From: Antitrichia curtipendula
Taxonomy: Eukaryota; Streptophyta; Bryopsida; Hypnales; Leucodontaceae
NCBI GenBank assembly: GCA_951230915.1
Contig: OX579639.1
Location: 1,674,001 to 1,738,000 of the forward strand
Reading direction: 5' to 3'
DNA length: 64,000 bases
Shown piece after piece: positions 34,473 through 55,924 of this stretch (position 1 is the first letter of the stretch; each line of letters begins with the position of its first letter). The position numbers were made by a program, and so were the translations under genes. A model generated the notes under the pieces. That model was not told the origin of the DNA and made no database searches. It saw only the letters and a list, made by a program, of their open reading frames with translations.

Positions 34473-37424
34473 TGTCGTACGCGTAATCTAGAGGTAAGCA
34501 CCTTTAACACACAATTGTGGTTAGATGACACGGAAAATCGTCCCAGGGACTCTACTATGTTGCTATGAATTTGGATTTAATTGGATTATCTCTAAAACAC
34601 CCCAAGGGAACCTAAAACCTCTCTTTCCCTCTTCCGGAACTTTATTTCTTTCCGGTTTCTAATCCGGATCCGTCCTTTTCCGGAATCCGGATACAGTAAC
34701 TCTTTGGTTTGTAATACCCCTATTTTACCTTCAGGGGGTCCACTTTTACACTTTAAAGGGGCAGGGACTCCACCACCTATCAATCACATATTCTAACACC
34801 TACAAAACAACCCAAGACACTCAATAGATCTAAATGTTGCTACGAAGTAGGTTCTCGTCTCCTCACGGCTTTCCGGATGGCCTATCCGGGAAGCAGGTCA
34901 CACAAAATCCGGTTCCCCTTCTCTACTACAACGACAGATACACGATCATTCGATATAGACACAAGAGAAAATCCACGAAAAAGTAGTTGTTACTGCAGTT
35001 GGCAGATCTTCCGGTAAGTGGGGGTATTCCCCTTGGCGGCCGCTTAACTCCGCACGGAACTAAGAATAGTTCCGGAACCTCACCCTCTTCACTCCAATCG
35101 GATTACTGTTCTAGTAATTTAAAGACCCTAAATGCACAAGTCCCACAAATCTGATCTAACTCCCTCAAGGATCCTCTTCTAAGATCTAAATCAAAACAGC
35201 CATGAATCCGGATTCCTCCTTTCCGGTTCCTCACAACTCACAAAGCACACAAACATACCACTCAAGTCCTTAAAAAGTACTTTAGAACATGGACAGCTCA
35301 CTAAGTGGCTTGGATCAAAGTAAGGTAAATGAAATGAAAACTGAAATTGCATAAGGATGGAATGAATGGGCAACAGACCTGCCCACCATTTAAAACCAAA
35401 ACAAAAAGGGAAAAAGGCAACCGAAAATCAAGCTAACCAACTACAGAAGAAGCCGAGATACTCGGCACCAAAAAACTATCCCTAAAATTTCGGAAACGGG
35501 CCCACACTTACGAAAATTCCGTTCCGGAAACTAAAAGCTCAAAATCCTAACTATCCGCCCTATCTACTTTCCGCGGCGTGTCTTCTTTGAACTACTTCCG
35601 CCTTGATTCGCAGCTTCCTTCGGGTTGGTCTTGACAGGAGTCGACCGGAGAGCCGCGCGGGTCTGAATCTTCCTGGGAGGGGGCGGAAGGTCTTCATATG
35701 TTTCCGTCATGGATCCGGATTCGTAGTCGTCCTTGTCTGAATCCACGATTTCGTTTACATCCTCCATCTTGTCCAGGTCAATGGGAGCTTCTTTCTCCTT
35801 TGCTGCTCCTTCTTCTGATGCATCTGTCTCCCGCATATGCACAAAATCCTGAGGACTTGTCCGGGCCGGATTGGCCACCAACCCCATCCGCCTGATGAGG
35901 TTGTTATCCACCATCGACTGTGTTTGTTTTACGGAATCGGAAGTTCCACCATGTACTGGTGTAGGAGTTACCACCTCAACTAGTGTTTCCGCCTAAGTCG
36001 GAGTACTTTGGGCCGGATTCTTCGCGGTGATCTGATTCCGCTGCGCCAACCATCCCTGTGGAATCTCGTGTGGCCTAAGAAGTGACCGAAGTCCTTCCGA
36101 TTTCGAACGGATGGAGCTCTCGTCCACATGCTTCACCGGAGTCTGAAGGTACGGATTGGTTGACAGATCCAGAAATGATGAGAAATTCATCGCCTGTTCC
36201 GGATCCACTCGAGATCCACTCGAGATCCATTCGAGCCACCAATGCCTGCATTTCCTTCAAGACCCTCTCCGTCCTCGTCTGGAAGTCCATCAGGATCATC
36301 ACCACCTTCGATCCAGTGATGTGCCCATCCGTCACTAGCTGTACGTCGTAGAGGGCCGCCTTGTTCACCAGATCCGCCGGTTGGGTGACCAGCGACTGCA
36401 AACTTCGAACCATGCCGAGGGCGTCCTTCTCATTCCGTCTCGCCAAGGAACACTCCCCTTCCGCCCAACTGGTCCGGGCTTGGAATTCATCCCGAGTCTT
36501 CTCTAGATTCCGGATCTCCTCGTCCTTCAGGCGGATTGTATCCGAATCTGGCCTTCGTCGGATCTCATCGATAATCTCCTCGGGCGGAACCTTCAGCTCG
36601 TCCGCGACCTCCTGGATGAACGCGGTCGTCCTCACATGTAGGAGTCGCGCCTGTACCATCCACTAGTCCACGACGTCGAAGAACTCCTTTCCGGAAGTTT
36701 TTCTCTCCTCCGGAACTTGGTTCGGCTCCACCGGGTTCATCTCGGGCTGCTTCCCCCTTGAACCCGGATCCGTGGATTTCCGCTTGGTTCCCCTCCGCCT
36801 GATCCGGTCCTCCTTAAGTTCCTCCTCTTCCTCTTCCGAAACTAGGACATCCTCCTGGACCTCATCCATCAATCCGTACTTGAAGATTTTGCATCCGGTT
36901 TCGTAGATGAGGGTCTCATCTGGCGTCAGTACATCTCCGTGATGGTACAAGTGGAAAAGGTAGGGGCAGATCGGGCTGTACTTAGCCTTGCTGACGTGGT
37001 CCGCCAGTTTGGTGACCACTGTCGCGATAACTCTTCCCTAGTGTACCACCCTCTCCTCCAGGCTTCCAAAAATAGTGTTGGCCACTGTTACGGTGACCCG
37101 GCTCGGCTTTTCCGGATAGAGTATCGGAATTATAAATTCCAATACTCTCCGGTGACTTTCGTTGATGCAGTCCGCGATTGCATAGCCCTCCTTGGCGTTG
37201 GGCGGATTCCGGAACTTCCCTGTTCCGAACTTATCCGCCCTTGAAGCCAAGCCGTTTCCGAACTCTCGGAACTGATACACCTCCGCCCAGACGTCTTCCG
37301 TCCATCCCTTCCTCTGCCCTCTCACAGTCAGCTCGTACTGGTTCGCCGTCCCATCAATGAGTTCCTAAATCAACTCATCTTTCTTCAAATTCCAGGGTCT
37401 CTCTATCAGCCCTACGCATCCCAT
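34473..37424 (-). mobile_element. Gag-like element inserted in gene E, 5' end missing
   Basis: It starts TGTCGTACGCG at 34473 directly after the kinase codons and carries a complete 3' region. Its gag-like gene stops abruptly at about 37424, where the hAT sequence begins. No 5' leader is found. The missing start of gene E is not found on the far side, so deletion accompanied or followed the insertions. Confidence 0.65.
35564..37424 (-). pseudogene. Gag-like protein, N-terminally truncated, with in-frame stops
   Basis: It runs from the WNLKK-like segment at about 37400 through RGQRKGWTEDVWAEVYQFREFGNG, TIFGSLEERVVH, the acidic linker, the coiled coil (ARRNEKDALGMVRSLQ) and the KIQTRAA tail to a basic SSKKTRRGK end at 35564. 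Isolated stops occur near 37366, 37038 (TAG against TGG in the copy at 20016), 36664 and 35993. At 36205-36230 a 12-base unit (GATCCACTCGA) is duplicated. Confidence 0.65.
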
Positions 37425-37535: not shown

Positions 37536-38130
37536 TCAAATCACTTCATCCATTTGGGGAGTTTCATCACCTATAACCATTTCCTCATCTTCCTCCGCTA
37601 CCTTCGCATGAGTATTTTCCCTATTTGCTAGAATGTTTTCACTACGCAACAACCCGGTTCCATCTAAGTATTTAGCTATGGAAGGTCCACCTTCATCATA
37701 TTCACAGTCGTCCTCATCCAACAAAAACTTGTAAGGGTCTTCACAATCATCTCCAATGTCTGCATCATAATGAAATAGGCTTCGAAGCGGTTCATCATCG
37801 AAATTGCGGATGCCGTGGTCATCTTCATCGTCCATGAGGGGATCAACTTCTTCACCGGATTCACCACCCTCGTCTTCCGATGAAGACAAGGCCGAATCCT
37901 CCGACTCGAGGTTCTCATCGTACCACTTCTTCTTGTCATTTTGCTTTGATGCACCGAAGACTTTGGAATTGGTATACACATATACCAAATCCTGTGCTCT
38001 TTGTGGCTTCAACTTGTTCTGATATTTGTTGTGAACAAAAGAATAGCTACTCCAATTTCGTTCACATGAAGACGATGATACCGGTTGGGCCAAAATCCTC
38101 TTGGCAATTGGAGCAATGAGCTTCCCGCAC
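37536..38130 (-). pseudogene. hAT transposase C-terminal part (dimerisation domain)
   Basis: It begins with the CGKLIAPIAKRIL helix and the hAT signature SSSSCERNWS (Glu of the DDE triad), continues HNKYQNKL and RAQDLVYVYTN, then an unusually acidic tail of about 130 residues (SEDEGGESGEEVD, DDEDDHG) and ends at 37536. This is the C-terminal half of the protein begun at 55649. The exon is cut exactly at GCTTCCCGCAC (38120-38130), the duplicated target of the inserted element. hAT C-termini normally mediate dimer formation; the long acidic tail is not typical. Confidence 0.8.
38120..38130. repeat. Target-site duplication GCTTCCCGCAC, left copy
   Basis: Eleven identical bases at 38120-38130 and 53864-53874 bracket the insertion. 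The bases outside differ on both sides. Keeping one copy restores the hAT frame (EGACGKLIAP). MULEs usually make 8-11 bp duplications. Confidence 0.75.
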
Positions 38131-38230
38131 AACGTTGCTAGGAAGCGAGCGGGGAGCGGGGAGCGGGGAGTGTAGAGCGGGAAATAGTGAGTGGGGAGCC
38201 TACATGTTGGATGGAAAATGAAAAAATGAA
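38131..38230 (+). repeat. Left terminal inverted repeat of the MULE-like element
   Basis: GC-rich with repeated GCGGGGAGCGGGGAG and GTGAGTGGGGAGCC. It pairs with 53770-53863 on the other strand with mismatches and small gaps. Confidence 0.65.
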
Positions 38231-38235
38231 ATGAA

Positions 38236-38670
38236 ATTAGAATTTTTGGTGGATGAAAGTCGTTGACATTTCAGATGAAAGTCACTGAAAATTTGGATGA
38301 AGGTTACCAAAAATTTGGATGGAAGTCACTAAAAATTTAGTGGATGTCAATTAAATTTTAGACTAGAGCATAATAAGGAGATGGTTTGGATGAAAAAAAT
38401 GGATGAAAGTAGATGAATAAATTGAATGAAAGTAGTTGACATATTGGATGAAAGTGGATGAAAGTAGATGAATAAATTGGATGAAAGTAGTTGACATATT
38501 GGATGAAAGTGGATGAAAATAGATGAATAAATTGGATGAAAGTAGTTGACATATTGGATGAAAGATTGAAAGTGGATGAAAGTAGATGAATAAATTCAAT
38601 GAAAGTAGCTGAAATATTGGATGGAAGTTTAGGAAATAAATTCAATGAAAGTAGCTAAAATACAGGATGA
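38236..38670 (+). repeat. Left subterminal GATGAAAGT array
   Basis: Tandem units of 20-60 bp on GGATGAAAGTAGATGAATAAATT and AGTTGACATATT. The right end of the element holds the same words inverted (CATCCACTTTCATCC). Subterminal repeats of this kind are common transposase-binding or end-recognition regions; that role is inferred. Confidence 0.7.
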
Positions 38671-39224
38671 AATCATATGCTGTAAGAGTTTAGGCATTAC
38701 TTGAAAATACAAAGGGACACTGCTATGAAAATGAGAAAATGAGTAACAAAATTCCATTGCCATGCACAAATGAATATTTTGAGATGATGGTACCTATGGC
38801 TATAGAAATATAGTGGCCTATGACCGCGGTTTAGGGTACAATATTGTTTTGCACCCACATAATAGTAGAACGGGAATACACCTATTACCGTGAAAATGTA
38901 AAACAGTTTGGAAGTAGACCTTGGTGCTTGTTCCAGGGTTTAGGAAAATGTTAATTTTGGACAATAGGTCAGATCACTTGTTTCATATGTTGCCTTTTCG
39001 GCTATAAATGTTGGCACGATGCTAGAAATTACAAAAATAAAGCACATGCTGGGTATGACTTCATGCAAAGGAACATCATGTACAATATGAGTGTACTTAA
39101 ATCAATTTTTGAAAAGGGATGAGTTGATCTAATGAAATGCAAGTATTGGCCCTTTTAGTCTCAGTACATTTTCATTTATGTGTTCAATAAACATAGGCTA
39201 TGTTCTTTTACGCAAAAAGACAAC
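38671..39224. other. No gene seen: between subterminal array and transposase stop
   Basis: AT-rich, probably 3' untranslated and internal element DNA. No repeat or frame of note. Confidence 0.4.
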
Positions 39225-42200
39225 CTAATTTGATCCCAAATGATTCAGTATTCCACTAAGAAGCACTTTCTTCACTTCATTGAAACTGAAACTTGCTGCA
39301 TGAATGAAGGCCTCCGATGTGGACTGTAGGTTGCAGATGATAGTGAAAATAAAATAAAGGTGCTTACAGTTTGCCCAAGTTCCCCGCTTGCCCAAGCACT
39401 TTAGCTTCATCTCCTTGAAATTTGGGCAAGTGCAATCTGGAAAAGAGGATATAGTGAGCATGTACTTTTCAAGACGAGGCTCTAGACCAGACACGAGTGA
39501 CACTATGCAACCAAATCCAGGGTGGGGAACCATTGTCACCCTCTCTATGCGTGCATTCAGTGTTAGGGCCGATGCGCAATTGTTCTGGTGCTTCACCAGT
39601 GGGACCTTCAGGTTGCGGCGAACGACCTTCCCTGCTCGAGTTGTTGGATGTTCATCTGGTGAAGACGGAACCGGGTAGGCACGTACAATTTGTATTCTTG
39701 CTTCTCCACCAAACAGTCTTCGAGGCGAAATGACTTGACGTTGCGGAAGTTGAAAGCCTGCCGCTTCAAAGGCCAAAATCTCGGCCTTTGAGAGTTTGGT
39801 GCCCATTTTCACTGGCCAAATGTTCGGAATAGCTGGTATTGATAACACCCACTTCCGCCGTGTACCTTTCACACATCGTTCAATGTTGTCGTTGCAAAAG
39901 AAAAATTGCATACGATCATGCCGATTTTTTTGGTAATTCACCATCATACCTGTATATGTTGGCGCCGCAGTAGCAATGTTGTTCTGGACTATTTGTGTTG
40001 TGCACTTCTTCTTGGTAATTGCTTGGAGTGCAAAGCATGCCTTTGCTGATGTTTTCGGTAAACGTGCTATGTGCCATTGCTCCTCGTTACACATGGTCTC
40101 TTGAATTGCTGTGACATGAGTCGAGTTCAGCGTACTAGTGACGCTTCCAATGTTTTCATATGATGTTAGCACTGGAGGGGCCACATCCACACATGGAGAA
40201 ACATCCTCCAAAATTATGTTCAAATCCGATGCACTTGAAGTGGCTCTCCACGACCGGGTTTGGATGCGTGGATGGGAGAAATTGACTTTGTCCGGTCTAT
40301 GTGAGTCATATTCGCAGCCAAGTGGCATGTCTGCCTTTCTCTTTTGCGATCCAAACACTTCTTCACCTTCAAGGTGAGGCTTTCTACTGAAAAATTCCTC
40401 TACACCTGGAATGTTTGAAATAGCTTCCGTGAGTGGCTTTGGATTGCCCGTTCACTCGGCTGAACGTTGGGCTACGCGGAGCATTAGCTCTTCCTTCCCC
40501 GGTCCTGTACCTGGTTGATTTCCCTTTAGAAATTGGTAATACCGTACCATCTGCATGAAGGCTCTAACGAAATCATCAACCGTTGCAATGTATAGATCGT
40601 TACCCCGATTTCCAGATTGTTGAAGCCACTTGTTATGTACTGTCTCAGCAAGGTTGCATGATGGCATTTCTGCTAGCTCTGACTCGTTCAGATCCTGACA
40701 GAAAATCATCCATAGACCACAATTAATTACCACTGTCCACAGACCTACTCTGATAAGGTGCATAAAGCAATATTGAGGATCAAATAGCATCGGTGGTATT
40801 AAATGGACACAAATCACTTTAAAGAAGTTTAATGATTCTTCCAAGACAATTTAGAGACAAGGACCCCTCTTGTTAGCGAGAGGAATTTCCAGTGACCAAC
40901 ACCATGGGTCATTGACAGATTCTCATCCTGCCCAGTGCGCAATTGACGAGGAAGAAATGAAAGAAATGTAAGCGGTTTACTTACTCACCCCTCTCTCGGT
41001 ACCGAGAGGGGGGTCTAGGGTCTCCCTGCCATGCATCACTAAGAGATTTTTGCCTAACAAAGACCACCCTCCTTGCCCACGTTCTAAGGGATCTACAAGG
41101 TCCATTTAGAATGGATCGGGTTGGAGCATTGGATAAATTCTAGTTATTGAACAAGAGGGGTAAAGAAGACACTCACTTATTCATTAACATACAAAATCTC
41201 TGCATTATTTTCAGATGATAAGTAGGAAGGAGAAGGACTTACAAGTTGCATGAATCCGCCCCATTGACGATACCGAAAATGCCAGAAAGAAAGCCACAAC
41301 TCCAATCGATGCAGTCCTGAATCAGTGGTGGCTTCTGATGATAACCACCATGCTTTTATGGCTAGGTAACGAGTCTCAGACTCCTCGGGAGTCTGGGCGT
41401 TTTTATACTGCTTACAAAGTAGACGATGTTGATCTTGTAAGTCCCCGCAAATATCCGCCTTTGTATGTTTTTCCATGGATTGTGTCCATTGAAAGAGGCA
41501 CGTTCTTTCACGATGTTCCATTGGTACGGTACTGTCCCCACATCCATAGATTGTCCGCACAGCATTCCAATTTGTTTGTGCACTATCTGCCATAAAACCC
41601 TTGAATTGAGTGTCGCAAACCCCATGTCTTTCGACAACAGAGTTAAGGTTTTTCCAAAAGAGGATTTGAGCGGCACAATCTTCAGATTGCATGTCACAAA
41701 TAGCGATTGTCATTACACGACAATACACGGAGTCGTATACATGACACGCCATGGTTGTCCATCCCTTCACGCGTTTGACGTGATTCCACGCGTCTTGTAG
41801 GTCTCCTCCACTTTGCATTCGCTTCACTAGGTCAACTCCACTTCCAGGTCCTACTTTTGACATTTTGAAAACAAAAACTTTGTCCACCTCTGTCCCCTGA
41901 CCAGGGAATTTACTCTCTTGAACAAAAGCCCACATGCTTGACCCCCTCAACTTGGTAATGCTGTCAATCACTCCAAATCTCCTTAAATATTTGAAAGATG
42001 TTACCTCGTTTCGAATACTTGGGGAGCTGAAGTATTTGCATTTATCCAGTACAGGGACGAGTTCATTGAAGTCCAAAGTCTTGGTTTGCAGTCCATCCGG
42101 ACACAGAATAAGCTCGCCCAAGAGTTCCTTTGTAGCCTCCATGACAATTGATGAGTTGGTGCCACTCGGTGTTCTCTCCATCTGTTCTCCAATCAGAGTC

Positions 42201-43330
42201 TGTGTTCTCTCTTTCATATCGCGGAGTTCTCCATCTTTAACCGAGTGATCATGAGTGCCCAGATGTATGAAAGCACGACTACGCGACTCATCCCCAGTAA
42301 CGTAATAGACCTTCACACTACACCTGGCAATACACGAGGGAGGCTCCTTGCAGATTTTACAAACAAGAGATGAACCTGGAGGATGGATATCGCCAATAGC
42401 CAGTGGAGTAGGTGACAATCCTTCCCATTCTATTTCATTTAAGTCCATGGTTCGGTGGACGCGACTAAGGAACTCACACGAGGAATTTATGCAACGAAGA
42501 TGATCTAGGCAAAAAGCGGTGCGGAACGATAACCCCATGGGGTTAGATATATTTGTGGTTACCATCTTGGACCACGCGTGACCATCACAACGCCTATCTA
42601 TGCCAATCATGTTCTTGGCCTCAAATTAAGTAGGATAGGATTGTAATGCAGGCAACTCGAATATCACATTTCCATTAAACTGTGGAGGCAACACCTGCAC
42701 TCTTTCAATGGAAATAGTATCGTAACTGAGTTTGGACAAAACATTTCTACATCCCTTTAACGTTCGAAGTCTTCTCAAGCAATCTATGACAGATACTCTT
42801 GAGAGACCAATTGCAGAAGTATTGCTTGTCATTGCTGGGGTCAAGTTTATAGGGGTTGGTACTGTCGACTGAGAAGGAGTGTCCACGTTTCTATTGTCCT
42901 GAGAGAGATCTACATCAGAATCATCACTCAAAATGGTAACATGATCTGGGAAGGCCTCCTTCTTCACACGAGTGAAGGTAGAGGTTTGAAATGACGACGA
43001 AGATGATCGATGGACTGCAAAAGCATCTACACAAACAGACCTATTTGAATCGAGTACTCCGTAAGTCCTATATTTTCCGGGCTTCAGATGCCAGTACGTC
43101 TCCTCAGTATCTGAAATCGGGACTTGTCCTACGCTGTGAGTGATGTTCCCAGTGTCGGCATCAAATATGTCTTCTTCAAGATGAATCGACTCTACCTTCA
43201 GATTGAACCGTACACTTAATCTAAAAGCTGAAACCACGGCAAGTCCGTCTTGGCCCATAGGAAAAATGACAGGAACCTCGTCTCCATTTGCACTAACCAC
43301 TATCATGTTCTCAAAGTCTACCATGGCCAT
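39225..43330 (-). pseudogene. MULE-type transposase (WRKY/GCM1-like finger, DDE core, SWIM finger), two in-frame stops
   Basis: Exon 1 runs from ATG 43330 to about 41243, where the donor GTAAGT follows FMQL. Exon 2 starts about 40694 after TTTTCTGTCAG and ends at 39225. The N-terminal about 230 residues are acidic and serine-rich. A zinc-finger-like region follows (FCLDHLRC ... C-KICKEPPSC ... HLGTHDH), resembling the WRKY-GCM1 finger of MULEs. The DDE core has candidate aspartates in VYDSVYC and FMADSAQTNWNAVR, followed by RTCLFQW. Next is an ETVHNKWLQQSGNRG helical region. A SWIM finger closes the protein (CTCPNFKEMKLKCLG...CKHLYF, C-x-C-xn-C-x-H). A TAA near 42625 and a TGA near 40450 interrupt it. 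The order finger-DDE-SWIM is standard for MURA-like transposases. The assignment to MULE is by domain order, not by search. Confidence 0.7.
40986..41012. repeat. Palindrome CTCTCGGTACCGAGAG in the transposase intron
   Basis: A perfect 16-bp palindrome at 40993-41008, flanked by further C and G runs. One of seven sites with the same core inside the element; see 44761, 45110 and 47799-48229. Confidence 0.7.
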
Positions 43331-44528
43331 CAGATTTGAAAACGTCTAAATAAAGTATTACATGACAACATACAGTAATTGAAACAGATGAGTTGACTGA
43401 AATGATAGAGTGAGAATGTGAAAGAATGGTTGAACAAGATATGACTCAAGCAAATAAACAATATGACTTAGATGGTAGAGATATATGAAAATTTGTAAGG
43501 TAGCATAATTTAGAGAAGTTCACCTTTTAAATGGAAAATGCAGGTTGGCGGCTAAGACAGAAGTAACTATCCAGTGACACTAAATGTCATAAAAGACATA
43601 ATACGGTATCAACCGCCTAATATGGTTATTCATATTCACAATAATAAAGAGCCTGACTTCTCTGTGTAAAACAATAATTGCAGACTCCTATTTCAAGCGT
43701 ATCCATGGGATTATGTCTTATAAAATCTACACAGCCAACTGAGACCGTCAATCAACCCAAACAAATAAAGTACATTAAGTGACAGTCTAGAAGTCATCTA
43801 TAGGTAATACATTAGAAGCACAGGGCATATTTGGAGAAAATTTTGGAAAACATAAACAACATGAAATCATAAACGTGTAGTATCTTCAAGAGTGGATCTC
43901 ATTTTTTAATTGGTAAAATAACATAAGGGTTTAGGGTTTAGGATTGAAGCGAGGTATATTACTTTTTCAATTCTCAGGCAACATAAATATGAATTAAATA
44001 TAGTGCTTTGAAGACTATATATAAGAATATAGCAGTTGGTAATTGAAAATCAAAAAAGCAAGTATCAATAAAGTTGCTATACGTTCTGGAAATAATTTTA
44101 GTTACCTATGGCTTCAAAATTTGGAAATTCCAACTTTATTAGAAAAAACAATACTTCAGCCTTTTGCAGAGGCCCAAACAAATTTACCTCGGTGTGAAAG
44201 CTGACCAACGGCTTGACCAATGCTGCTCATCGCCGGTCACTTGGTAACCTACGATCTCCGGTCACCTAAACCATAACCACCAACAACGAAATCCTAATCA
44301 GGAGAACACATTGGGGGCACCGACCGCGGCACTCTCCATTTCAATACCTTGTTGCCCCGTACGCCTCCCAACCGGAACACCACGATTGACAATTCCATCG
44401 ATTGAATGTTTCATGGTCTATATGATTCACCATTTGAATGCCTCACCAGTCAAGGAATGCTTTACATGCTTTCTGACTTACTCACATTTTTTGTGAATCT
44501 TAGTGTTTTCATCAAGAGCAGGCTGAGC
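43331..44528. promoter_or_regulatory. Divergent promoter spacer between transposase and methyltransferase genes
   Basis: About 1.2 kb of AT-rich DNA with no coding frame separates the two start codons, which face away from each other. It contains a telomere-box-like AAGGGTTTAGGGTTTAGG run at 43926-43945. No single TATA box stands out. A shared bidirectional control region is inferred from the layout only. Confidence 0.45.
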
Positions 44529-44692
44529 ATGGAGCGTAATTTGAGGTCGCGAAGCGGAAAGGCAATTGCAGACAGTGGCAATGCACCTGCACTACAGCCC
44601 AAGCCTCCGAATGACACGGTACGATTCTCCGGAATCCATTGTCTTACAAAAAACAACTCGGCCATGGCCGCGTTTCAGCAATTAGGTTTCAC

Positions 44693-44842
44693 TTTCAAAG
44701 TTTCGATTAGGATGCAGGTCGTGAAGAGGAAATGAACAAGACCAAGCGCAGCTTGGGGAGGGTCTCGGTACCGAGACCGTAGGGTGGGGGGCGGCAGTCT
44801 TGGACATTTCCAAGATTTCCAGTGAAGGCCCGAGAGCTTCGG
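44693..44842 (+). repeat. 150-bp direct repeat, copy 1 (with GGTCTCGGTACCGAGACC)
   Basis: It is nearly identical to 45042-45191, offset 349 bases, both in the first intron of the methyltransferase gene. Each has the perfect 18-bp palindrome (44761-44778 and 45110-45127) and ATTTCCAAGATTTCCAGTGA. Only a few bases differ, so the duplication is recent. Confidence 0.85.
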
Positions 44843-45041
44843 TTTCTAATTTTTTTTTGATTTTGTGTACTGGTTTCGTTTTTTGAGTTCTAATTCGAGA
44901 ATCTCGGGGGAGAGTGGCATTCAGTTTTGGAAGGCAAGCGCGTGAGGCTCACACTCAAGGGCCAAATGGTATTTTCTGTGAATCGGAGTCATGAGGCTTG
45001 CAACCAGATGTGAATTTAGGGTTTCTTGTTTTTTTCTTTTT

Positions 45042-45191
45042 CTTCAAAGTTTCGATTAGGATGCAGGTCATGAAGAGGAAATGAACAAGACCAAGCGCAG
45101 CTTGGGGAGGGTCTCGGTACCGAGACCGTAGGATGGGGGGCGGCTGTCTTAGACATTTCCAAGATTTCCAGTGAAGGCTCGAGGGCTTTAG
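45042..45191 (+). repeat. 150-bp direct repeat, copy 2
   Basis: Second copy of the repeat at 44693-44842. It ends just before the acceptor of exon 2 (45241). The two copies could mispair or recombine, deleting the 199 bases between them. Confidence 0.85.
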
Positions 45192-47779
45192 ATCCAAAAA
45201 ATTTCTTTCCTTATCTAAATTATATCTCTTATTCTACTCAGGTCTCAAAGGGGACGCCTTCGAATCAAGCTTTTGACAACAATGCACAGGAAGAGGGCCA
45301 TATTCACGTGTCCTAGAGGGTCATGGCTGCAATACCTTTGGTAAGCCTCTTAGGATTATTAAAAGAACCCGTGTTGACAATAGATGACTTTTCTAAATTT
45401 GGAGTCATTTCCTAAGTTATTCATCTTCTTCCTCTGTAGTTGAAAGTATCTTAGAGGCGATAAATTCATCTCCTCCTCATAGTTTAGAGTACTGCACTTG
45501 TGTCCGCATCGAGGTAGTGGTCATATCCGCTTCAGCATTGGATGATGACATTCGAATCTACTGCTACGGACATTATTTGCCTATGATCGAGAGGTGCTCT
45601 ATGATTATTGAATGTTTTTTCTATCACTTGTTTTATTGATTCACCTTCTTATGTAGTATACTGTGGTACTCACGTTGAATCGGAATACCTATTTGATTTC
45701 TTATATCCATTCATACGTTATGGTCCAGACGCAGATAGACGCCCAAAGAAGCTCTCCTTCGGAGTTACTTGTTCCATCAGTAGCGGATCCAGTACCACAA
45801 CCGCTAATCGAGTTCTTGGACATCAACGACATGGAAGAAGACAACGCTCCGGGATTCGGTGGAGACATGATGGAAGATGAGATAAGGAAGACACATAAAA
45901 TGGACGTCGTCTCTATTATTTTGAGCTTGAGGTTGACATCATCCGACTTGTCCAGGATGCGTATCCCCTTATGTCGAATGATACCCATGCCAATGGTTCG
46001 GCCTACATTAGAGTGTGACCTTGTGCAACTCGAGAACTAGTTTGCATGGGGATACGAAGAGGGAGCAAGAGTCTTCTATGTTTCCATTGCAGACGAGCAA
46101 GGGCAGACCGGCGTGTTTTCGACTGTAGAGAAGGAAGAGTGGGGGCCACTATGGAACCAAGTGAATGACAAGTTCAACGCACAACTCAGTTCCCAGACGG
46201 CACTAAGGCATTTGGTTGACCACAAATTCTACGTTTGTGATGGCAATCATCGTCGGATAGCCTGGATGAATCATATTAAGCGGAAGCATGCCACCGACAT
46301 TGATTGGCACTACGCTGTAGATTCTATCATTTTGGACACGAGGAGTCGAATTAGCACAACCATGCAGGTTATGCACGACATTAACCAGTAAGTACATTTT
46401 GCTCTTCAAGCAGAATACCATTCCATTTCCTAATAAATTGTTTTGTTCAAATCATTCTTAATTTTAAACTGACAATCGTGACACCTTCTTGTTTTTTAGG
46501 CACACGGAAAACTCGCACGTGAAGAACAACCTTGTCCATACATTATATCGAGTGCAAAAGTATGGTGTCATGGATCTGGAGAAGTTCCATGAGCTACTCA
46601 GCCCCGAGGAAATTAAGACTTGCAAGAATACGGCAAGGAAAACCTGGTACTCAATGCCCCTTGAAGTTTTCACATCATTCATCTTTAAGGTATGAATTCC
46701 TGTTCAGTTTATTTTCATTTATCCTACGTTCGAAATTCCATGTACTCTAAAATAATTCCCATTCTAAATCAATATGTGTATGCATACAGCAAGAGATTTC
46801 AGCGTTGGCGGACCTTGCTGTTCGTAAGTACCACAAAGATACCCCGAAGGACGAGGTGACGCTGGATGGAGTGGCTACTGCAATGAGAAGATCTATCAAG
46901 GACTCCACGGCCTCTTTCCGCCAAAAGATGTCAAAGATAGTATCCGTGGCGGCTCCATCTCTAGGTCCCGGATTCCTACAAGAGGTAATTTTGTATTCCT
47001 CATTTGCTTTCAGGAACAATCAGACATTGAATTGGAATATTTGGTCTAATTTCCTTTCTTTGTGATTTTACAGATTGAGAGGCATTGGAGCCTTTTCACG
47101 GTACCGGAGTTAACCCTTGACAAGTTGCAAATGATATCATCTGCCGTAGCTTCCCCTGCACACAAAGTAAAATGGCTGAAGTGGATGAATGCATCTGCTC
47201 CTACAAGGGAGGCTCGTAGATTTCCAGCTCGGCCTATCAACGAGGACAAATTGATGTTGTTCCTTGCGAGGGCAGTTTGGTATGCTGGGGTAAAGATATG
47301 TAACTTTCTCTTGCTTGTTGAGATGTCAACGTTATTTGTTGATATATATCCCTTTGTCAAATTACACTGGATTCTCAATTAATTGCAAACATTGTTTGAC
47401 TCTTAATAATATTCCATTCTTATTACAGCTAGAAGAGTCAGCTCTTACGCTCTTTAATACCGTTTGTAAGGCTGACAATATTCCAATCAATATGGATATT
47501 CCAACGGAGCCGCAAACACTGTCCGAATATCTGGAGGAGTGGAGAATGAAACTATGGGACATGGCATACACTGGCATGTTCAAGGGATTGGAGCCTTTCA
47601 AAAAGTCTGATACTTTTGCAGACTTCCGTGGAGCTACCCTCGTAGTGAAACGACTGCTCTACAGGTACTATATATGTTTATTGATGGACACCACTTCTTT
47701 ATGTTTTATTGGTGTGTTTGCAAGAGTTAAAAAATCCAAGGCAAGAATGTGGTACCGGGAGGCTCTAATTTGTGAAGAG

Positions 47780-48245
47780 GTAGGAAGGCCAGAAGGGTGT
47801 CTTGTAACCAAGACAGCCTTTGGAATAGGGGCACCCCATGAAATACTTTCAGGAAATTATGGTTGGAAATCCAGTTTGAAAGTTTAGGAGGGGGCCCAAA
47901 AGTTTCAATTTGTCAAGAGATAGGCAACATGTGAAGGTGTCTTGGTACTGAGACAACCTCAAAGAAGGGGAAACTCATGCAGTACTTACATGAAGCTAGT
48001 GCTCCAAATACAGTTAGAAAATTTTTGGTAGGGACTCGAAGATTCAAAGTTGTTAAAAGGTAGGGAGTCCATGCGGTTGTCTTGGTACCAAGACACCTTC
48101 AAAGGCGGGGCACGCCATGCACAAGTTACTTAGAAAATATCTCTAAATCCTATTGTCTGAGAGTGTGTGTATGTCAAAATTGATGTATGTCAAAATGTAG
48201 GCCGGCCATGCTGGTGTCTCGGTAACGAGAGGGTCTCCAAGGGGA
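47780..48245 (+). repeat. Intron tandem repeat of about 135 bp with palindromic core
   Basis: Four diverged units lie in the 664-bp intron between exons at 47664 and 48329. Their cores are at 47799, 47939, 48079 and 48214 (spacing 140, 140, 135): GTCTTGTAACCAAGAC, GTCTTGGTACTGAGAC, GTCTTGGTACCAAGAC (perfect) and GTCTCGGTAACGAGAG. Each core is followed by a GGGG-containing stretch and, in most, CCATG or similar. Confidence 0.7.
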
Positions 48246-50510
48246 GGCAACTTATGGATGAATACTATTTTCTTGACAAATTATTTTTTCTAAACCATGT
48301 TTACATCTGTTGAAATTGTGGATTCCAGGTACTTCAAGCTTGAGTTATATGCAAAGAAGGCAATAGAAAAGGCGGATTTACCGCCGTTCCTTACTACATG
48401 GTTGGACAGATCATTGACCGACTGCATGTTCTCTGCTTCCCAGCTGCGTCTGTGGACCACTCCACATTTGCAGGCGTGCCCATGGTATCTCGAGTGCAAC
48501 TTCGGCACCACTCCGCCAGAAGAGGAGGCCCTCTTCTGGAGACTGAAGGGAACCACGGACGTCCAGCCAGAGTTCCATGAATTTGTGGGTTTGGATCCCG
48601 AGGCTCGATCCAAAGCCATTGCAAAAAGGGAGGTGGCAGACAAGAAGAAGGAGGAGAAATGGGAAGAGGCTAAGAAGAAAACAGAGGACAACAAGAAAAA
48701 GCACATGGCGGCCAAGGTGGAGAAGGAAGAAGAGAAGGCCAAGAAGAAGGGGACTAAGCGTAAAGCGGAGACACCCTTACACGAACCAGCTACTAGCGCA
48801 GCAGAGATGAAGGATACATCTTCTGGTTTCTCACTCACTCAGGAGCGACTAGTGCACGGTCTCACACCGACAACTCAGAATATCGACCCTGTTCTGGACG
48901 TCGATGAGTGCATCCTTAACTTGCCTTTAGGAAGTCTCTGCGACCATATGAAGGCACTTCAGGACGTCGAGGCCTTCTTGGGCATGGTGAGTTTACTTTC
49001 GTTTATTAATGGCCTCATATTTCCAATATTCTATGCACAACTACAAGACAATAATGGGCCACATGATGTTGATTATTAAGATTAGTAGTCTTGTAGTTAG
49101 AGCACCAGAATCTTCATACTTTCTTGATTTTTATGATTTCTGCAACGAATGTCTTTTGCAGCATTCCAGTGACAAGGATCGCTATTTTGATGGTAAATTG
49201 AGCACACAAGCTGCTGTCGACTTGATCATCGTGGACATCCCGGAAGGACTACATGTGCCAACTATTTCCGCACCGCCTACACCCATTCCAAAGTGGAATG
49301 AATTCGACAAAGATTATCTCTTAGCTGTATTTGACTTTGCCCAAGAGTACTTGCACGACAATGGCGGTTTGTTGGTGATATATCCTGCCCCTTCTAAGAA
49401 ACACCGAAGCCAACTCCTTGGATGCAGTAAAGAGTATAAGTTCCGCATACTTCTAACGTACTTCGGCAATAACCATCTCCATCTCACATCCCCTGTAGAT
49501 CCAACAAAAACGGTAAGAACTCTTCTTCCATCATGTATATTTCATTTGAACTTGCACTTCCCTTGTATCGGCTTCTAACATTTGTTTTCTTCCAGACCAA
49601 GCGCTTCGCTGCCTCTCTAGTGGTCAAAGAGGCTGGCCCGAAGACACAAGAGGATTTTCCGTTCCAATTTGTTCCATCCCATGATGCCGTTGGGGTCACC
49701 TTATGCACTGACGACATCCTTTCGAACTTGTGTTTCAAAGAAGACATTACCATGAATGGTGACGTACCGTGGCGGGGCCCACGTGAGAAGGCCTGACAGT
49801 TCATGCAGATGCTAGTGGAAGGGATGACGGAACCAGGAGACGTCGTTGTCGATTGCACAGCGGCCACAGGTTTTTTTTGGCTAATTATTTAATTTAATGT
49901 CAATGATATCATATCATGAACTTCATGTTCCGATGATTTTTGTTAATATTTGGTCGGGATGTTTGTAGGTTCCAGCATCCAAGCTTGCCGCGCCACGCAT
50001 CGGCATATTTTGGCATTTGAGGAAGACAAGGCTATCTTTGAAGCCCTTATCGCTCCGGTCATGCGCATTGCTGCAGGTGTCTCTAAACCACCGCCACAAC
50101 TGCCAGTGGAACTTGTAGACCTAGACGACGAGGACGTACCTGCACAAGTTGTCAAGAAGACATCTCGATTCAGTAAGTAAGTTTTACTTTAATATCTTTG
50201 TTTGTTCCCAAAGACTGAGCACTATCTCATGTATTCTAATATGTTGTTTCGTGGTGTTTGCAAGAAAGCCACAAAATTGAGGCTCTCTCAACAAGTTCCT
50301 TTTTTTGCCAATCCGGATTTCTTTCCAAGCCCTGAAAAACCATTTCAGCTACCTATATACGCTGAGGAGCTTTGCAGGGAATTTGTTGCCCTAAATCCTA
50401 GACCCACTTCTAGGGCCTACTCGGTATATCCTCGTGCTCTCCAATTTGCAGATGATTGTGCCGTAGAGTCAGATTTGCAGACATCGGATAGTGAGGGTAG
50501 TTCTACCTGA

Positions 50511-50780
50511 GTCCAACTTATGTGAAGTACTGATATCATCAAGCACTCTTGGATCAGGTGCATGTACTTCATTTTGAGGATTATGATTTTTTTAAATCTT
50601 TGTATGAGTGATTTCTTTTGGAATGTATATGTATTCTAAAACCGTAATATCTTTTGGGGTGCATGCTTAACCACAGTCATTACACACCTCCCTTCTCATA
50701 ATCTACAGAACTTGTCAGCAAATTTAGAATCTCCAAAATTTTCTAAGCTATCTTTGCATCCCAGTATAACAAACAGAGTT
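50511..50780. other. No gene seen: 3' flank of the methyltransferase gene
   Basis: AT-rich; probably 3' untranslated region. No clear poly-A signal cluster or repeat. Confidence 0.35.
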
Positions 50781-52150
50781 AGCTACGAGGGGGGGAAGCT
50801 AGGCTGCGCTGCCCGGTCAATATTGACGGATTAGGCGGGCTGCCCATCCTGCCCACTTCAACTACCAAGGCTAGCTATCCACCCTATCCACATCGACTGG
50901 AAGGTCGGCCTACCTTGCTTGTCTATTTTGAGAGATTGAGTTGGTAGCCTAGGTTGCCCCTACTATTGGATAGGTAGGTGAGTGGGTCGGTAGGTGGTTT
51001 GGCAAGGAAGGCTGTACTTCACAGAATAGGCAACCCGCCCTTCCTACCAAACTCAAGGACGTAGGCAGCCCGCCCTTCCTACTAAGGTGGGCCGGGTGTG
51101 CAGTTCCCCAAGGACACCAGCTCGAGAGGTTGTTAAACACCCCTTCCTTGTGTAGCTTGACAGATTTGGTAGCCCGCTCTCCCTGCCCAATTGGCCGGGT
51201 TGGGCAATCCCTCTCTCCTTGCCTACCTTAATGTGCTAGGTAGCCCTTCTTCCCCCCCCTTGCTCAGTTGGAAGGATTGGGCAACCCTCCCTCCATGCCC
51301 AACTCAAGTGGATGCTCTGCTTGCCCCCTCCAGTCCAGTTGAACAGCCTAGGCAGCCCGCCCTCGCTGCCTAATTGGAGGGATAAGGCAGCTCGCCCTCC
51401 TTGTTGAACTGGAGGGGTGGGGCAACATGCCGTCCCTGCCCAACTCGAGGGGCTGGGCAGACCTTGAATCTTGCCCAAATCAAGGAGGTGGACAGCCTGC
51501 CTAGCCTACTGTACTCAAGGGACAAAGCAGCCCGCTCTCCCTGCCCACCTAGACGAGGTGGGCAGTCTGCCCCGCTCGAAGGGCGGGGTAGCCCCCCTAC
51601 TCAAGTCGATGAGGTGGGCAATCCCTCTTCCCCTGCCCAACTAGATGAGGGGTGCAGTCTGCCCTTTTTTACATCGGTAACATCGCTCGAAGGACAGGGC
51701 AACCCTCTCCCCCTGCCTAGCTCGATGAGATGGGCAGTCTATCCCCCTTTGCCCCACTTGAAGGGCGGGGCAGACCTCCCCTCCCCCGCCTAGCTCGATG
51801 AGGTGGATGGTCTGCCCTACTCAAAGGATGGAACAGCCCCCCCTACCCAGCTCAATGAAGTGGACAAACCTCCACACACACCTGCCCAGCTCAATCAGGT
51901 GGGTCCTAAATTCCTCTGTGCCCCGCTCAAAAGCCAGGGCAGCCCTCCCTTGCTCGCTACCCATCCGGACAAGGTGGGCAGTCTGCCTTGCTCGAAGGGC
52001 GGGGCAGCCCTCCTTCCACCCTTGTCTACCTCGACAAACGGAGCAGTCCCTCTTCCCTTCCCCAGCTCGGCGGACTGAGCAGTCTGTCCCCGTTACCTAC
52101 TTAGAGAGATAAGGCAGCCCGCCTTCTTAGTTCAGCTAGAAAGATGGGGC
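50781..52150 (+). repeat. GC-rich cryptic minisatellite (GCAGCCCGCCCTCCCTGCCCAACT type)
   Basis: About 1.35 kb of imperfect 40-60 bp units built on 'gggcagcccgccctccctgccca-ctcgatgaggtgggcagtctgcc', with a strong C bias on the plus strand. Open frames on both strands (Pro/Ser/Gly-rich) follow from the composition. It lies between the methyltransferase gene and the right end of the element. Confidence 0.75.
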
Positions 52151-52194
52151 CGCCCGCAACCACTACTCACTAGAGTCGGATAAGATGATGTATG

Positions 52195-52390
52195 GCAAAC
52201 TTATCACTTTGTGATACACGTCGCCATGTTGTGGCATTTAAAGAGGATGAGTTTGTCTTTGTCTCCCAAAAAAATCCCTGCATGCGTGCAGTTTTGATAA
52301 AATTAGTGTTATAGTCTTGTAGAGCTCAAGACAAAGACATCAGATAGCAAGGGTAGTGTTACAGTCAGTGGAAGTAGTACGAGGTCACAT
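52195..52390 (+). pseudogene. Degenerate duplicate of the methyltransferase 3' end
   Basis: The stretch reading RRHVVAFKEDE-VFV (52218-52265) parallels THRHILAFEEDKAIFE of the motif-I exon at 49969. The following 'agacatcagatagcaagggtagtgttac' parallels 'agacatcggatagtgagggtagttctac' at 50478. It is a partial, broken tandem copy of the last exons, about 2.2 kb downstream of them. Confidence 0.5.
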
Positions 52391-53450
52391 TACACTGTAA
52401 TAGTTCGAGTGCATGTAGTTTACAGAGAAATTGAAGTTTCAATTTTCAATCATATTTGCGGGCGCATTACTCTTTTGGAGTGTGCATGCTCATTGTTGCC
52501 TTTGGATTATTACTACTAATCTGTACTTGATTCATTATCTAACATGCTTGACATCTTTGTAACATTGATCATGCATCTTCTTCAGTCATACGACGTACTC
52601 CTCCATGAACACATTAGAATTGTTGACTTGCTTACCCTTACACCCACAAGAAGAGCCCCTTCTAAAGTGGTGTTCCATGGGACATGCATTTCATTTGCCT
52701 AATGATATTGACAGATGAGTGCGTCGTCTACTGTAGGAGATGCATGATGAATGTCTGTCAGATGGTGAGCTAGTTGGCATGTAATGATAATAAATGAAAA
52801 ATTGATGCTCTAAATGCTGCCATGGACATCAACTCTAAAAAAACAGCCTAAAGCCTCTTAGAATAGAGAATGTCGATGTTTCAACAATCAATTGAACGAT
52901 AATGCTCCAAGTGCTAATCCTACCATGAAGGTAGAAGCGGACAGAAACGAGTAGGTCCACTTGATTCTTGCAAGGCGATCTTTGAAGACTTCCGAAAAAG
53001 GTAAGAGGTACTAGAGGGTAACTACAATGATCGGAATTCCGAGAGTGAAGCAATAATATTTAGCGACTTTCATAAAACATCTAGTAACCATACTGTGTTG
53101 TTGCAGTTCAATTTTGTTCGCTTGTCTCAGTCTCTTATGTTGATGCGATTCAATTTCAATTGCTTGTCCTAGTCTCTTGTGTTGATGTAGTTCAATTTTG
53201 TCCGCTTGTCCTAGTCTCGTGTGTGGATGTAGTTCAATTTTGTTTGTTTATCCCAGTCCCTTGTCGCCACACGAGTATGATTTTGAAAAATTAGCCCCAT
53301 GCAAATTCAAACAAAATTTGAAGCTCTAAACGAGAAGTGCAACAATTCAGATGGACGAAGTCTTTTCTGCTACTACCAAATCACCACTCATCTTATCTTT
53401 TCTACGTATAGGTCGAAGTAGGAAAATTTATTGCAAAATCTTCTATCTTG
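52391..53450. other. No gene seen; short 60-bp tandem repeat at 53100-53275
   Basis: Non-coding element interior. At 53100-53275 three to four units share 'agttcaattttgt-cgcttgtcctagtctc-tgtgttgatgt'. Nothing else recognised. Confidence 0.45.
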
Positions 53451-53454
53451 TGTA

Positions 53455-53765
53455 ACCAATTTTTTCATCCATTTTAGTATCTACTGTCATCCATCTTTTG
53501 ATTCAGTTTCATCCATAATTCTCATCTACTTTTATCTGTATTTTTCATCCACTTTCATCCATATTATTCATCTACTTTCATCCATATTTTTCATCCAATT
53601 TTTCCATCTACTTTCATCCATATTTTTCATCCAATTTTCCCATCCACTTTCATCCATTTTCTCCAATTACTTACTTCCATTTTTCCCATGCAATTTCGTG
53701 ATTTTTTCTTGAAATTTGATCCATTTTTCATCAACTTTCATCCAATTTTTCATCCATTTTTTGTC
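53455..53765 (-). repeat. Right subterminal GATGAAAGT array
   Basis: On the minus strand, units of GGATGAAAGTAGATGAAAAATATGGATGAAA. The same motif family as 38236-38670 in inverted orientation, supporting a single element with both ends present. Confidence 0.7.
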
Positions 53766-53769
53766 ATTT

Positions 53770-53863
53770 TTCTTTTTCCGTTCCAATATTTCAGCTCCCC
53801 GCTCACCAATCCCCGTTTCTTGCTCACCGCTCGCCGCTCCATGCTCGCTTCCCAGCATTCCCC
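53770..53863 (-). repeat. Right terminal inverted repeat of the MULE-like element
   Basis: Read on the minus strand: GCTGGGAAGCGAGC, GGAGCGGCGAGCGGTGAGC, then TTGGTGAGCGGGGAGCTG, matching the left end with mismatches. Confidence 0.65.
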
Positions 53864-53874
53864 GCTTCCCGCAC
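53864..53874. repeat. Target-site duplication GCTTCCCGCAC, right copy
   Basis: Identical to 38120-38130. On the minus strand the hAT codons run up to and through this repeat (EGACGK), after which the frame enters the inserted element. Confidence 0.75.
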
Positions 53875-55649
53875 GCGCCTTCAAAATCCCACCAAGCATG
53901 CGCTGACAATTGTTGTTCACCCGGATCCAACATGTTGTGGAACGGAGGTTTCCTATGGCGGAAGGCTACAAATTCCTTCACCACCTTTGCATACTCTAAA
54001 GGTGTACATATTTGCATCAAAACGCGCTTGTATGCAGCCATGGCATCGGTGTCGTTGGCTAGTTCTTTGTCTTCAAGAAAGTAGGGATTCAAAAGTGCTC
54101 CTCCATAATGTAAATCGGTCTTCACCATATCACGTTGTTCGTAGAACGCCTTCACCAACGGGATGGCTTTGTCCAAAGCCAAACAAAAAGTCTCTTTGTC
54201 TAAAGCGAGGACGTGCTTCTCTAGTTTCCTCATAATATGTAACACCTTGCCCATGCATGGTGTTTTCGCATCCAAATTACAAAGAGCATTGACAATTGGA
54301 GCTGTTACATCTTCAAAATTTTGACAACGATGCCAAAAATGCCCACTTAGAATGGTCTACTTCACCCATTCGGATTCTAAACGAGTTTTGGATTTTCGCG
54401 AGTGCTTTCTAGCATATTCCTCCCATTGCGGATTCGTCACAGTTTGTTGCAATTGTGCTTTCACCTTGAGCATACGTGCAACCATGTTGTAATTCGAGGC
54501 AAATCTTGTTTCCACCGCCAACAACAAGTTGTATTGCGTCGAATATTTCCGAAGTATCGCAAGCGGCATATGCCTCTTCTTGAAGAATTTGACTATCTTT
54601 CGGGAATCTTTCACGACGTCATCAATCCATTGTTCGTTTGTCCAATCTTTTAGCAACAAATTCAAGGCATGCACCACGCAACCTTGGAAAAAAATGTGGG
54701 GATAGGTAGTAGATACCAAACTCCATGCTGCTGGATTTACAGCCGCATTATCTGTATTCACCTGCACTACGTTTGCAGGGCCCACTTGTTCTATGAAACT
54801 CTCTAATATAGAGGCCAAATATGGAGCATCTTTAGTTTTCCCAGTTGTATCCACCGATCCTAGGAATTGCTCACCCGCGGATGACACAAGCATGGCATTT
54901 ATCAATGGCCGATTCGAAACTGAGGTCCACCCATCAATAGACAATGTGGCTCCAAACTTCCTGATACTGATTTCTTTCTGCTTACGGAGATTGACCTCTA
55001 AGTCTACTTTTGCTTGGTCAAGCAATTTATGACGTAGATCATAGTATGATGGTGGGCTATAAAGTTGGTGAAACTCCGCCGTTTTCTTCACTACTTCTTT
55101 GAAGGCTGGATTTCGGGCTACAGCAAATGGTATGTTTGCTGCATAAAAGAAATTGGCCCACATTGCATTCAAAGTGCGTTTATTTGCTTTTTTGAATCCT
55201 TCTACTAGCCTACTCTGTCTTTGAGGCCTACTGCTTGATGTCCGCTGAGTTCCACGTCCACCTAATGTTTGTGTACTTGGATTTCCTTGGGAAGAACCAC
55301 CAACATATTCCTCTGGTGCCGTGCATGAGTCTTCTTCGGTAGAGTTCACAATGTCTCTTGCATTTGACATAGCATGAACAACCATAGGCATAGGTGTGTC
55401 GTTGCCATCCACATTGTGTGGAGTACCTCTTTGTGGAATCACTCCATTGCAACGAACAAATAGACCTGGAACTTCAGATGTCATTTGAATACAAAGGCTG
55501 ATTCCTTTGTCACGACTCTTCGATGTGCCTGCATATCTGAAATGACTAAACATACGGACCGCCTTCTTGGCAAATACCAAGTTGCAAGCCTTGCATTGTA
55601 CTTTTCCATTTGATAGGGTTTTGTACCAAGAAGACCAATCCTTGGTCAT
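53875..55649 (-). pseudogene. hAT transposase N-terminal and central part, one in-frame stop
   Basis: From ATG 55649. A BED-like finger comes first (QCKACNLVF...MFSHFRYAG...ISLC), then a Ser/Thr-rich linker. The DUF659-type core has SIDGWTS (first catalytic Asp), VNTDNAAVN (second Asp) and GCVVHALNLLLKDW. It continues to WWDFEG, just before the hAT C-terminal block. A single TAG at 54357 (K-stop-T-I-L) interrupts an otherwise open frame. The coding exon is intronless and is cut at 53875 by the MULE-like element. The join to 37536-38130 gives about 790 codons, a normal hAT length. Confidence 0.8.
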
Positions 55650-55924
55650 GGTGGTTGTTTTAGGCTCTGTATATTGAAATCAGAAATTTAGAACGTAATG
55701 ATAACAATTGGATAAAATTGTTCAAATGTTTATGCACAAAGCCTTGGAAAACAAGGCCCCTCTTTCCACAAAACTATGCATTACCAAGCAAGGGACACAA
55801 AAAATTGCAGCGCCTAGCCCTTGGAAATCTTAGCATTCAGTTTCTTAGGAGTGTTTGCAAATGTCAATTTCAGGATTCTTATAGTCTTCATTTGACCGTT
55901 GAATATGGGAAAAAAAAAATCCTC

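Follow-up and report, generated by a model that had tools for sequence, protein, structure and literature searches.

A decayed MULE-type transposon of the moss Antitrichia curtipendula contains an amino-methyltransferase-like gene with a changed motif IV

According to the available text of the source, the VANC anti-silencing proteins of Arabidopsis act on tandem motif arrays in the noncoding parts of VANDAL elements, which belong to the Mutator-like elements (MULEs) (PMC10398659). A tabulation of MULE cargo names SET, OTU, FAR1, the plant mobile domain, and others, and the string "methyl" appears zero times in the main text of that source (PMC6446971). The same source tabulates the target-site duplications of MULEs at 8–11 bp and lists the SWIM finger. 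Here, we describe an element in the moss Antitrichia curtipendula (assembly GCA_951230915.1, contig OX579639.1, positions 1,674,001 to 1,738,000 of the forward strand). This whole stretch of 64,000 nucleotides is called the window below. The element contains two divergent genes, one for a transposase and the other for a protein with a methyltransferase-like domain (the cargo gene). Our best explanation, for which we see about an even chance, is a decayed transposon of the Mutator superfamily whose cargo protein would act on the DNA of the element itself at arrays near both ends, with a domain that serves mainly for binding.

The element is inserted in a hAT transposase gene (Table 1). On its plus strand, the window contains the 11-bp sequence GCTTCCCGCAC at just two places, the flush pair at the element edges. 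A common 11-mer between two 91-bp flanks was seen in 2 of 2000 mononucleotide shuffles. The length of 11 bp falls in the MULE range. In Pfam, the right flank matches DUF659 (E 3.6e-34) and the left flank matches Dimer_Tnp_hAT (E 7.7e-8), both on the minus strand. When the flanks are fused over one copy of GCTTCCCGCAC, the hAT frame is unbroken across the junction (...AWWDFEGACGKLIAPIAKRILAQPVSSSSCERNWSS...). The hAT gene rebuilt in this way has one internal stop, away from the junction. Because the joined flanks give one hAT frame, the 15,733 bp between the duplications is a single insertion, irrespective of later inserts inside. The edges proposed by a sequence-only reading of the window, 38131 and 53863, are exact, based on the flush duplications and the restored hAT frame.

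That reading also proposed one element with both ends visible, and the terminal inverted repeats and subterminal arrays bear this out. The terminal inverted repeats are around 60 bp long and G+C-rich. They start 5–6 bp inside the ends, and the outermost 5–6 bp are unmatched. The inverted local alignment of the two ends scores 335, and the highest score among 200 mononucleotide shuffles is 158; this control is soft because the arrays are simple repeats. Inward of these repeats lie the subterminal arrays with a unit of roughly 23 bp. They are symmetric, and both point inward. The motif TGGATGAAA is found 23 times in the window, and 22 of these are in the two arrays; the mean in 100 shuffles is 1.25 and the largest count is 5.

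The cargo gene is on the plus strand at 45720–50180 and consists of nine exons, with AG/GT at all internal borders. The spliced gene encodes 999 residues. A chimeric query made of three cargo pieces retrieved 42 proteins, 23 of which match the methyltransferase exons (P0041–P0062 and P0076) and 19 match exon 1. The sequences of 32 among the 42 were examined. Identity to the window is 32–80% over the matched parts, and the same motifs are kept. Two relatives are named, M758_UG251900 (partial) and KC19_5G032000, both from the moss Ceratodon purpureus. These two proteins back the joins of exons 7–8 and 8–9, and the Ceratodon protein P0058 has a border consistent with that of exon 8. With the full-length cargo query, no relative was seen among 7999 candidates scored; we think that this is because the relatives are single-exon frames outside the length limits. 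Viral contigs and, with the exon-1 alignment, bacterial and archaeal genome contigs gave pattern matches and no relatives. Phage records gave no match to exon 1, and the methyltransferase domain query gave 229 weak matches at E up to 1 (best E 9e-4 among the 20 listed). An open frame just past the cargo gene (50193–50510, 105 aa) was considered as a tenth exon and dropped because the relatives end earlier. The C-terminus of the cargo protein holds the acidic stretch VELVDLDDED.

The C-terminal domain matches PHROG 3008 "DNA methyltransferase" (E 4.8e-9), PADLOC MTase_II for type II enzymes (E 3.7e-6), and, among solved structures, DpnA (E 6e-4). The cargo also matches Pfam N6_N4_Mtase (E 1.5e-4, 22.2 bits). 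The profile and DpnA matches fall on motifs X–I. Motif IV is placed before X–I, which is the order of beta-class N6/N4 DNA methyltransferases. The proposal of a second gene related to these enzymes inside the element ends is upheld at the profile level. The canonical motif IV, (D/N/S)PP(Y/F/W), is seen in none of the 20 relatives covering the position, and the window reads DIPEGL. Eighteen of them contain D-[VIM]-P-E-G-L, and the remaining two contain DVLEGL and DQPKGL. Nineteen of the 20 retain both the Asp and the second Pro. DIPEG is aligned with DPPYN of DpnA, in a first segment that scores only 0.2 bits. Judged from the aligned relatives, DxPEGL is a conserved changed site, not random decay. 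Motif I appears to be changed as well: the window reads DCTAATGS in place of FxGSGT, with the last Gly kept, and the three relatives that cover it contain DC[TS]A[AG]T. The acidic stretch AFEED after motif I is kept in the window. Because of the replaced motif IV and the TAATGS-like motif I, methylation cannot be assumed, and the original label "DNA methyltransferase gene" goes too far. Ordinary methylation by the cargo family is further doubtful because the bdelloid enzyme N4CMT is inactive once Ala takes the place of Ser and Tyr in its SPPY motif, as given in the accessible part of the report (PMC8885841).

The transposase gene is on the minus strand at 43324–39225 and has two exons. The arrangement of two divergent multi-exon genes is as first proposed. 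The predicted DDE core of a transposase relative has ISCth4 as its nearest structure. ISCth4 is presumably a member of the IS256 family. The IS256-type DDE fold is tied to eukaryotic MULEs, and an N-terminal finger of the GCM/WRKY/FLYWCH type is a MULE trait. The match of the window transposase to Pfam SWIM is below the cut-off of that model (E 0.17). No Pfam MULE transposase model matched the window exon pieces (E up to 1) or the relatives P0001, P0002, P0034, and P0040 (E up to 10). Of the finger-DDE-SWIM architecture proposed before, the DDE-SWIM part of MULE type stands and the finger, which would be of the GCM/WRKY type, is only possible. Near 41786, exon 1 contains a three-residue gap and Asn in place of the first proposed catalytic Asp. 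The transposase alignment found one locus, L001, in genome contigs. This locus (L001 1–4101, on contig CADCWO010000080.1, which is filed under a cyanobacterial metagenome-assembled genome) encodes an intron-bearing MULE-type transposase, and its donor border matches that of exon 1. The contig is probably contamination from a eukaryote because its transposase gene has an intron. The N-terminal part of the transposase (43324–41243, minus) contains acidic stretches such as VTILSDDSD, common to relatives; they resemble SUMO-interaction motifs.

The present copy of the element is broken and decayed. Both genes have two in-frame stops each, and the transposase is altered at the first proposed catalytic Asp. 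The sequence-only reading had noticed neither of these defects, nor the noncanonical motif IV. The observed/expected ratio of CpG is 0.63 in the element and 0.85 in the flanks. TpG/CpA is enriched, with TpG at 1.16 in the element and 1.05 in the flanks. The loss of CpG with the gain of TpG/CpA would fit long cytosine methylation of the element. Introns of the two genes and the intergenic stretch contain short, dispersed inserts with palindromes centred on GGTACC (44761–44778, 45110–45127, 47932–48101, and 40987–41014). They are probably small later insertions. A direct repeat pair of 165 bp (44694–44858 and 45043–45207), 95.9% identical over 146 bp, lies between the two genes. A G+C-rich array with many TGCCC...GGGCAG units occupies 50900–52100, past the cargo gene on the side of the right end.

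Table 1. Positions of the element, its ends, and its genes in the window.
Feature	Position	Strand	Basis or remark
Whole element	38131..53863		15,733 bp, within hAT transposase gene; 11-bp duplication and restored hAT frame
Target-site duplication, left copy (GCTTCCCGCAC)	38120..38130		directly outside element edge
Target-site duplication, right copy (GCTTCCCGCAC)	53864..53874		directly outside element edge
Interrupted hAT transposase gene, N-terminal part (DUF659)	53875..55679	-	Pfam; joined-flank frame
Interrupted hAT transposase gene, C-terminal part (dimerisation region)	37536..38119	-	Pfam; joined-flank frame
Left outer terminal inverted repeat, G+C-rich (TGCTAGGAAGCGAGC...)	38136..38200	+	local alignment with reverse complement of right end
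Right outer terminal inverted repeat	53793..53857	-	local alignment with left end
Left subterminal array, 11 TGGATGAAA motifs, all +	38250..38581	+	motif count
Right subterminal array, 11 TGGATGAAA motifs, all -	53463..53756	-	motif count; tandem repeats
Transposase exon 1	41243..43324	-	possible zinc finger, first part of DDE core; one in-frame stop
Transposase exon 2	39225..40694	-	CNLAET with proposed third catalytic residue, SWIM motif; one in-frame stop before end
SWIM motif C-x-C-x(19)-C-x-H	39360..39434	-	aligned in window, P0001, and L001
Cargo exon 1	45720..46387	+	ParB-like motif DGNHRRIAW; one in-frame stop; 19 relatives
Cargo exon 2	46500..46689	+	splice borders
Cargo exon 3	46790..46984	+	splice borders
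Cargo exon 4	47074..47289	+	splice borders
Cargo exon 5	47429..47664	+	splice borders
Cargo exon 6	48329..48986	+	charged low-complexity linker; splice borders
Cargo exon 7	49162..49512	+	methyltransferase-like domain, motif IV position DIPEGL; relatives alignment
Cargo exon 8	49596..49869	+	motif X and start of motif I; one in-frame stop; profile matches
Cargo exon 9	49969..50180	+	end of methyltransferase-like domain and stop; ends RFSK, as P0061

Most probably, the cargo protein would act on DNA of the element itself, where the inverted subterminal arrays lie. By their look, the inward-pointing arrays are candidate binding sites. The protein might be a factor for sequence-specific loading, for anti-silencing, or for transposition, with a logic like that of VANC on VANDAL elements. 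Its methyltransferase-like domain would mainly bind DNA or S-adenosylmethionine rather than perform the usual base methylation.

Several observations weigh against this explanation. The arrays could be plain binding sites for the transposase. The Pfam methyltransferase scores, 22.2 and 25.2 bits, are below the gathering cut-off of 26.7. The longest cargo relative is 251 aa, and therefore all 42 are single-exon frames or partial proteins; a complete cargo gene was not found among these matches. The ParB-like N-terminus, also part of the sequence-only reading, is only partly upheld. The GxxRR-type motif is characteristic of the ParB-CTPase fold, and it is present in exon 1. It is a part of [DN]-x-N-H-R-R-I-A-W, which is seen in 19 of 19 exon-1 relatives. 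No Pfam ParB model matches the 19 exon-1 members at E up to 10, and PHROG 1033 "ParB-like" weakly matches one of the three exon-1 proteins given (E 0.039). The search of solved structures with the exon-1 part gave no match, and its predicted fold model is poor, with a mean predicted local distance difference test (pLDDT) score of 44. One exon-1 member touches Pfam DndB (E 0.094). In the accessible part of a published study, the ParB-fold proteins that were assayed include one resembling DndB (PMC12704722). The ParB assignment, weak as it is, is kept as a lead.

The evolutionary unity of the two genes can also be questioned. P0056 of the cargo family and P0010 of the transposase family, which are probably linked as described below, are 42% (cargo exon) and 53.4% identical to the window, respectively. 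The best cargo relatives reach 73–76% identity, and transposase relatives do not exceed 56% among the matches listed, from a search whose candidate length limits leave out many relatives. Some module swapping between cargo and transposase is possible because their relatives differ in identity, a comparison that the length limits also bias.

The rival explanations can be ranked as active methylation, a transposition subunit, a passenger gene, and a nested composite, in that order. In the first, the cargo would be a methyltransferase still active on N4 or N6 in spite of its unusual motif IV, and it could mark the element ends or new copies with N4-methylcytosine or N6-methyladenine; marking of the ends was also raised by the sequence-only reading. 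The matches to DNA methyltransferase profiles, the Asp and second Pro of motif IV, and AFEED are consistent with an enzyme, and transposons with adenine methyltransferases or Dnmt3 are already known. The missing canonical motif IV, the changed motif I, and the inactive bdelloid mutant argue against it, and we regard it as improbable, though foremost among the rivals. The cargo protein might instead be a structural subunit for transposition itself, in end synapsis or target choice, with no epigenetic role. The two-gene layout and the symmetric inward-pointing arrays suit such a subunit, and several MULE groups have a second reading frame beside the transposase, as tabulated in PMC6446971. Nothing speaks directly against it, and sequence alone cannot part it from the best explanation; we consider it unlikely as well.

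The last two rivals concern the tie between the genes. Both genes are inside one insertion in the window. For both P0010 and P0056, the recorded contig size is 18,151 bases. By simulation, a match of contig sizes would arise by chance with a probability of 0.044, and a match at 15 kb or more, a cut set after the fact, with 0.00085. They are a probable second linked copy; the sequence-only reading proposed looking for both genes in other copies, and this pair is all that was seen. The pair speaks against a passively captured, Pack-MULE-like passenger of no use to the element, and so do the multi-exon gene, which is not a fragment, and the motifs kept in relatives at 32–80% identity. MULEs are prone to acquiring host gene fragments, as far as the source at hand goes (PMC6446971), and the decayed copy and the missing complete relative would suit a passenger, which nevertheless seems very unlikely. 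The least probable rival, a slight chance at most, is that the cargo gene sits in a second element nested within a simpler MULE. The 165-bp pair, the palindromic inserts, and the G+C-rich array inside the element would allow this. Among the 25 inverted-repeat pairs listed (68 further pairs lie beyond), two enclose only the cargo gene, with 82% over 22 nt and 76% over 21 nt. Yet both pairs are A+T-rich and without a flush direct duplication, and their strength is that of chance: the best inverted match across the cargo gene is 18 of 22 bases, compared with 16–19 in 20 shuffles. The probable linkage of both genes in another genome also argues against nesting.

The surroundings of the element are eukaryotic, with intron-bearing genes and the remains of hAT and other transposons. 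No tRNA genes and no Rfam matches at gathering scores are present in the window. Similar long open frames are found at 12296–13600 and 33219–34487, and one has a protein-kinase-like stretch recognised by eye (HNDISPDN). They are likely genes of another transposon.

If the cargo protein works on the arrays, MULEs would offer a second, independent example of sequence-specific self-recognition, and a methyltransferase fold would have persisted through long divergence with its active site changed. More tentatively, and at somewhat less than even confidence, we suggest a MULE lineage of bryophytes, and possibly of their algal relatives, in which a phage-type ParB-methyltransferase protein was recast as a dedicated factor that reads or loads on the lineage's own terminal arrays. 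The D-x-P-E-G-L site might then be non-methylating or perform a different reaction. On this reading, a eukaryotic DNA transposon would have turned a bacterial enzyme for DNA modification into a system of anti-silencing or self-recognition.

Like the present element, VANDAL combines a MULE, an accessory gene, and tandem arrays of short motifs in noncoding parts (PMC10398659, as available), whereas the cargo protein described here contains a methyltransferase-like domain. When the spliced cargo was scanned with Pfam, without a direct comparison with VANC, no plant mobile or VANC-type domain appeared. Phage fusions of ParB-CTPase and N6_N4 methyltransferase have a similar proposed make-up, with both parts in one protein (PMC12704722, accessible part). 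In contrast, the gene here is an intron-bearing transposon gene with a long middle part, a changed motif IV, and a putative ParB part. IS256 (ISCth4) and eukaryotic MULEs share with this element the DDE core, predicted in one relative, and the 11-bp duplication, whereas the transposase here appears too distant in sequence for any Pfam MULE model. DIRS elements with an adenine methyltransferase, and a Klebsormidium Gypsy and Symbiodinium elements with Dnmt3, are likewise transposons with a DNA methyltransferase gene, but they are retrotransposons, Dnmt3 is a C5 enzyme, and the key residues are kept in Klebsormidium (PMC5890265, in the part available). Fungal DNA transposons with TET/JBP dioxygenase, and oomycete MuDR and HarbingerS with SET, are also DNA transposons with genes for chromatin or DNA modification (PMC12730594, in the part available), but of other enzyme classes. 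A MULE with an amino-methyltransferase-like gene was not found in the literature searched, mostly non-subscription papers without Repbase. Transposon-borne DNA-modification genes are already known, and within the accessible literature, what is new here is an amino-methyltransferase-like gene in a MULE.

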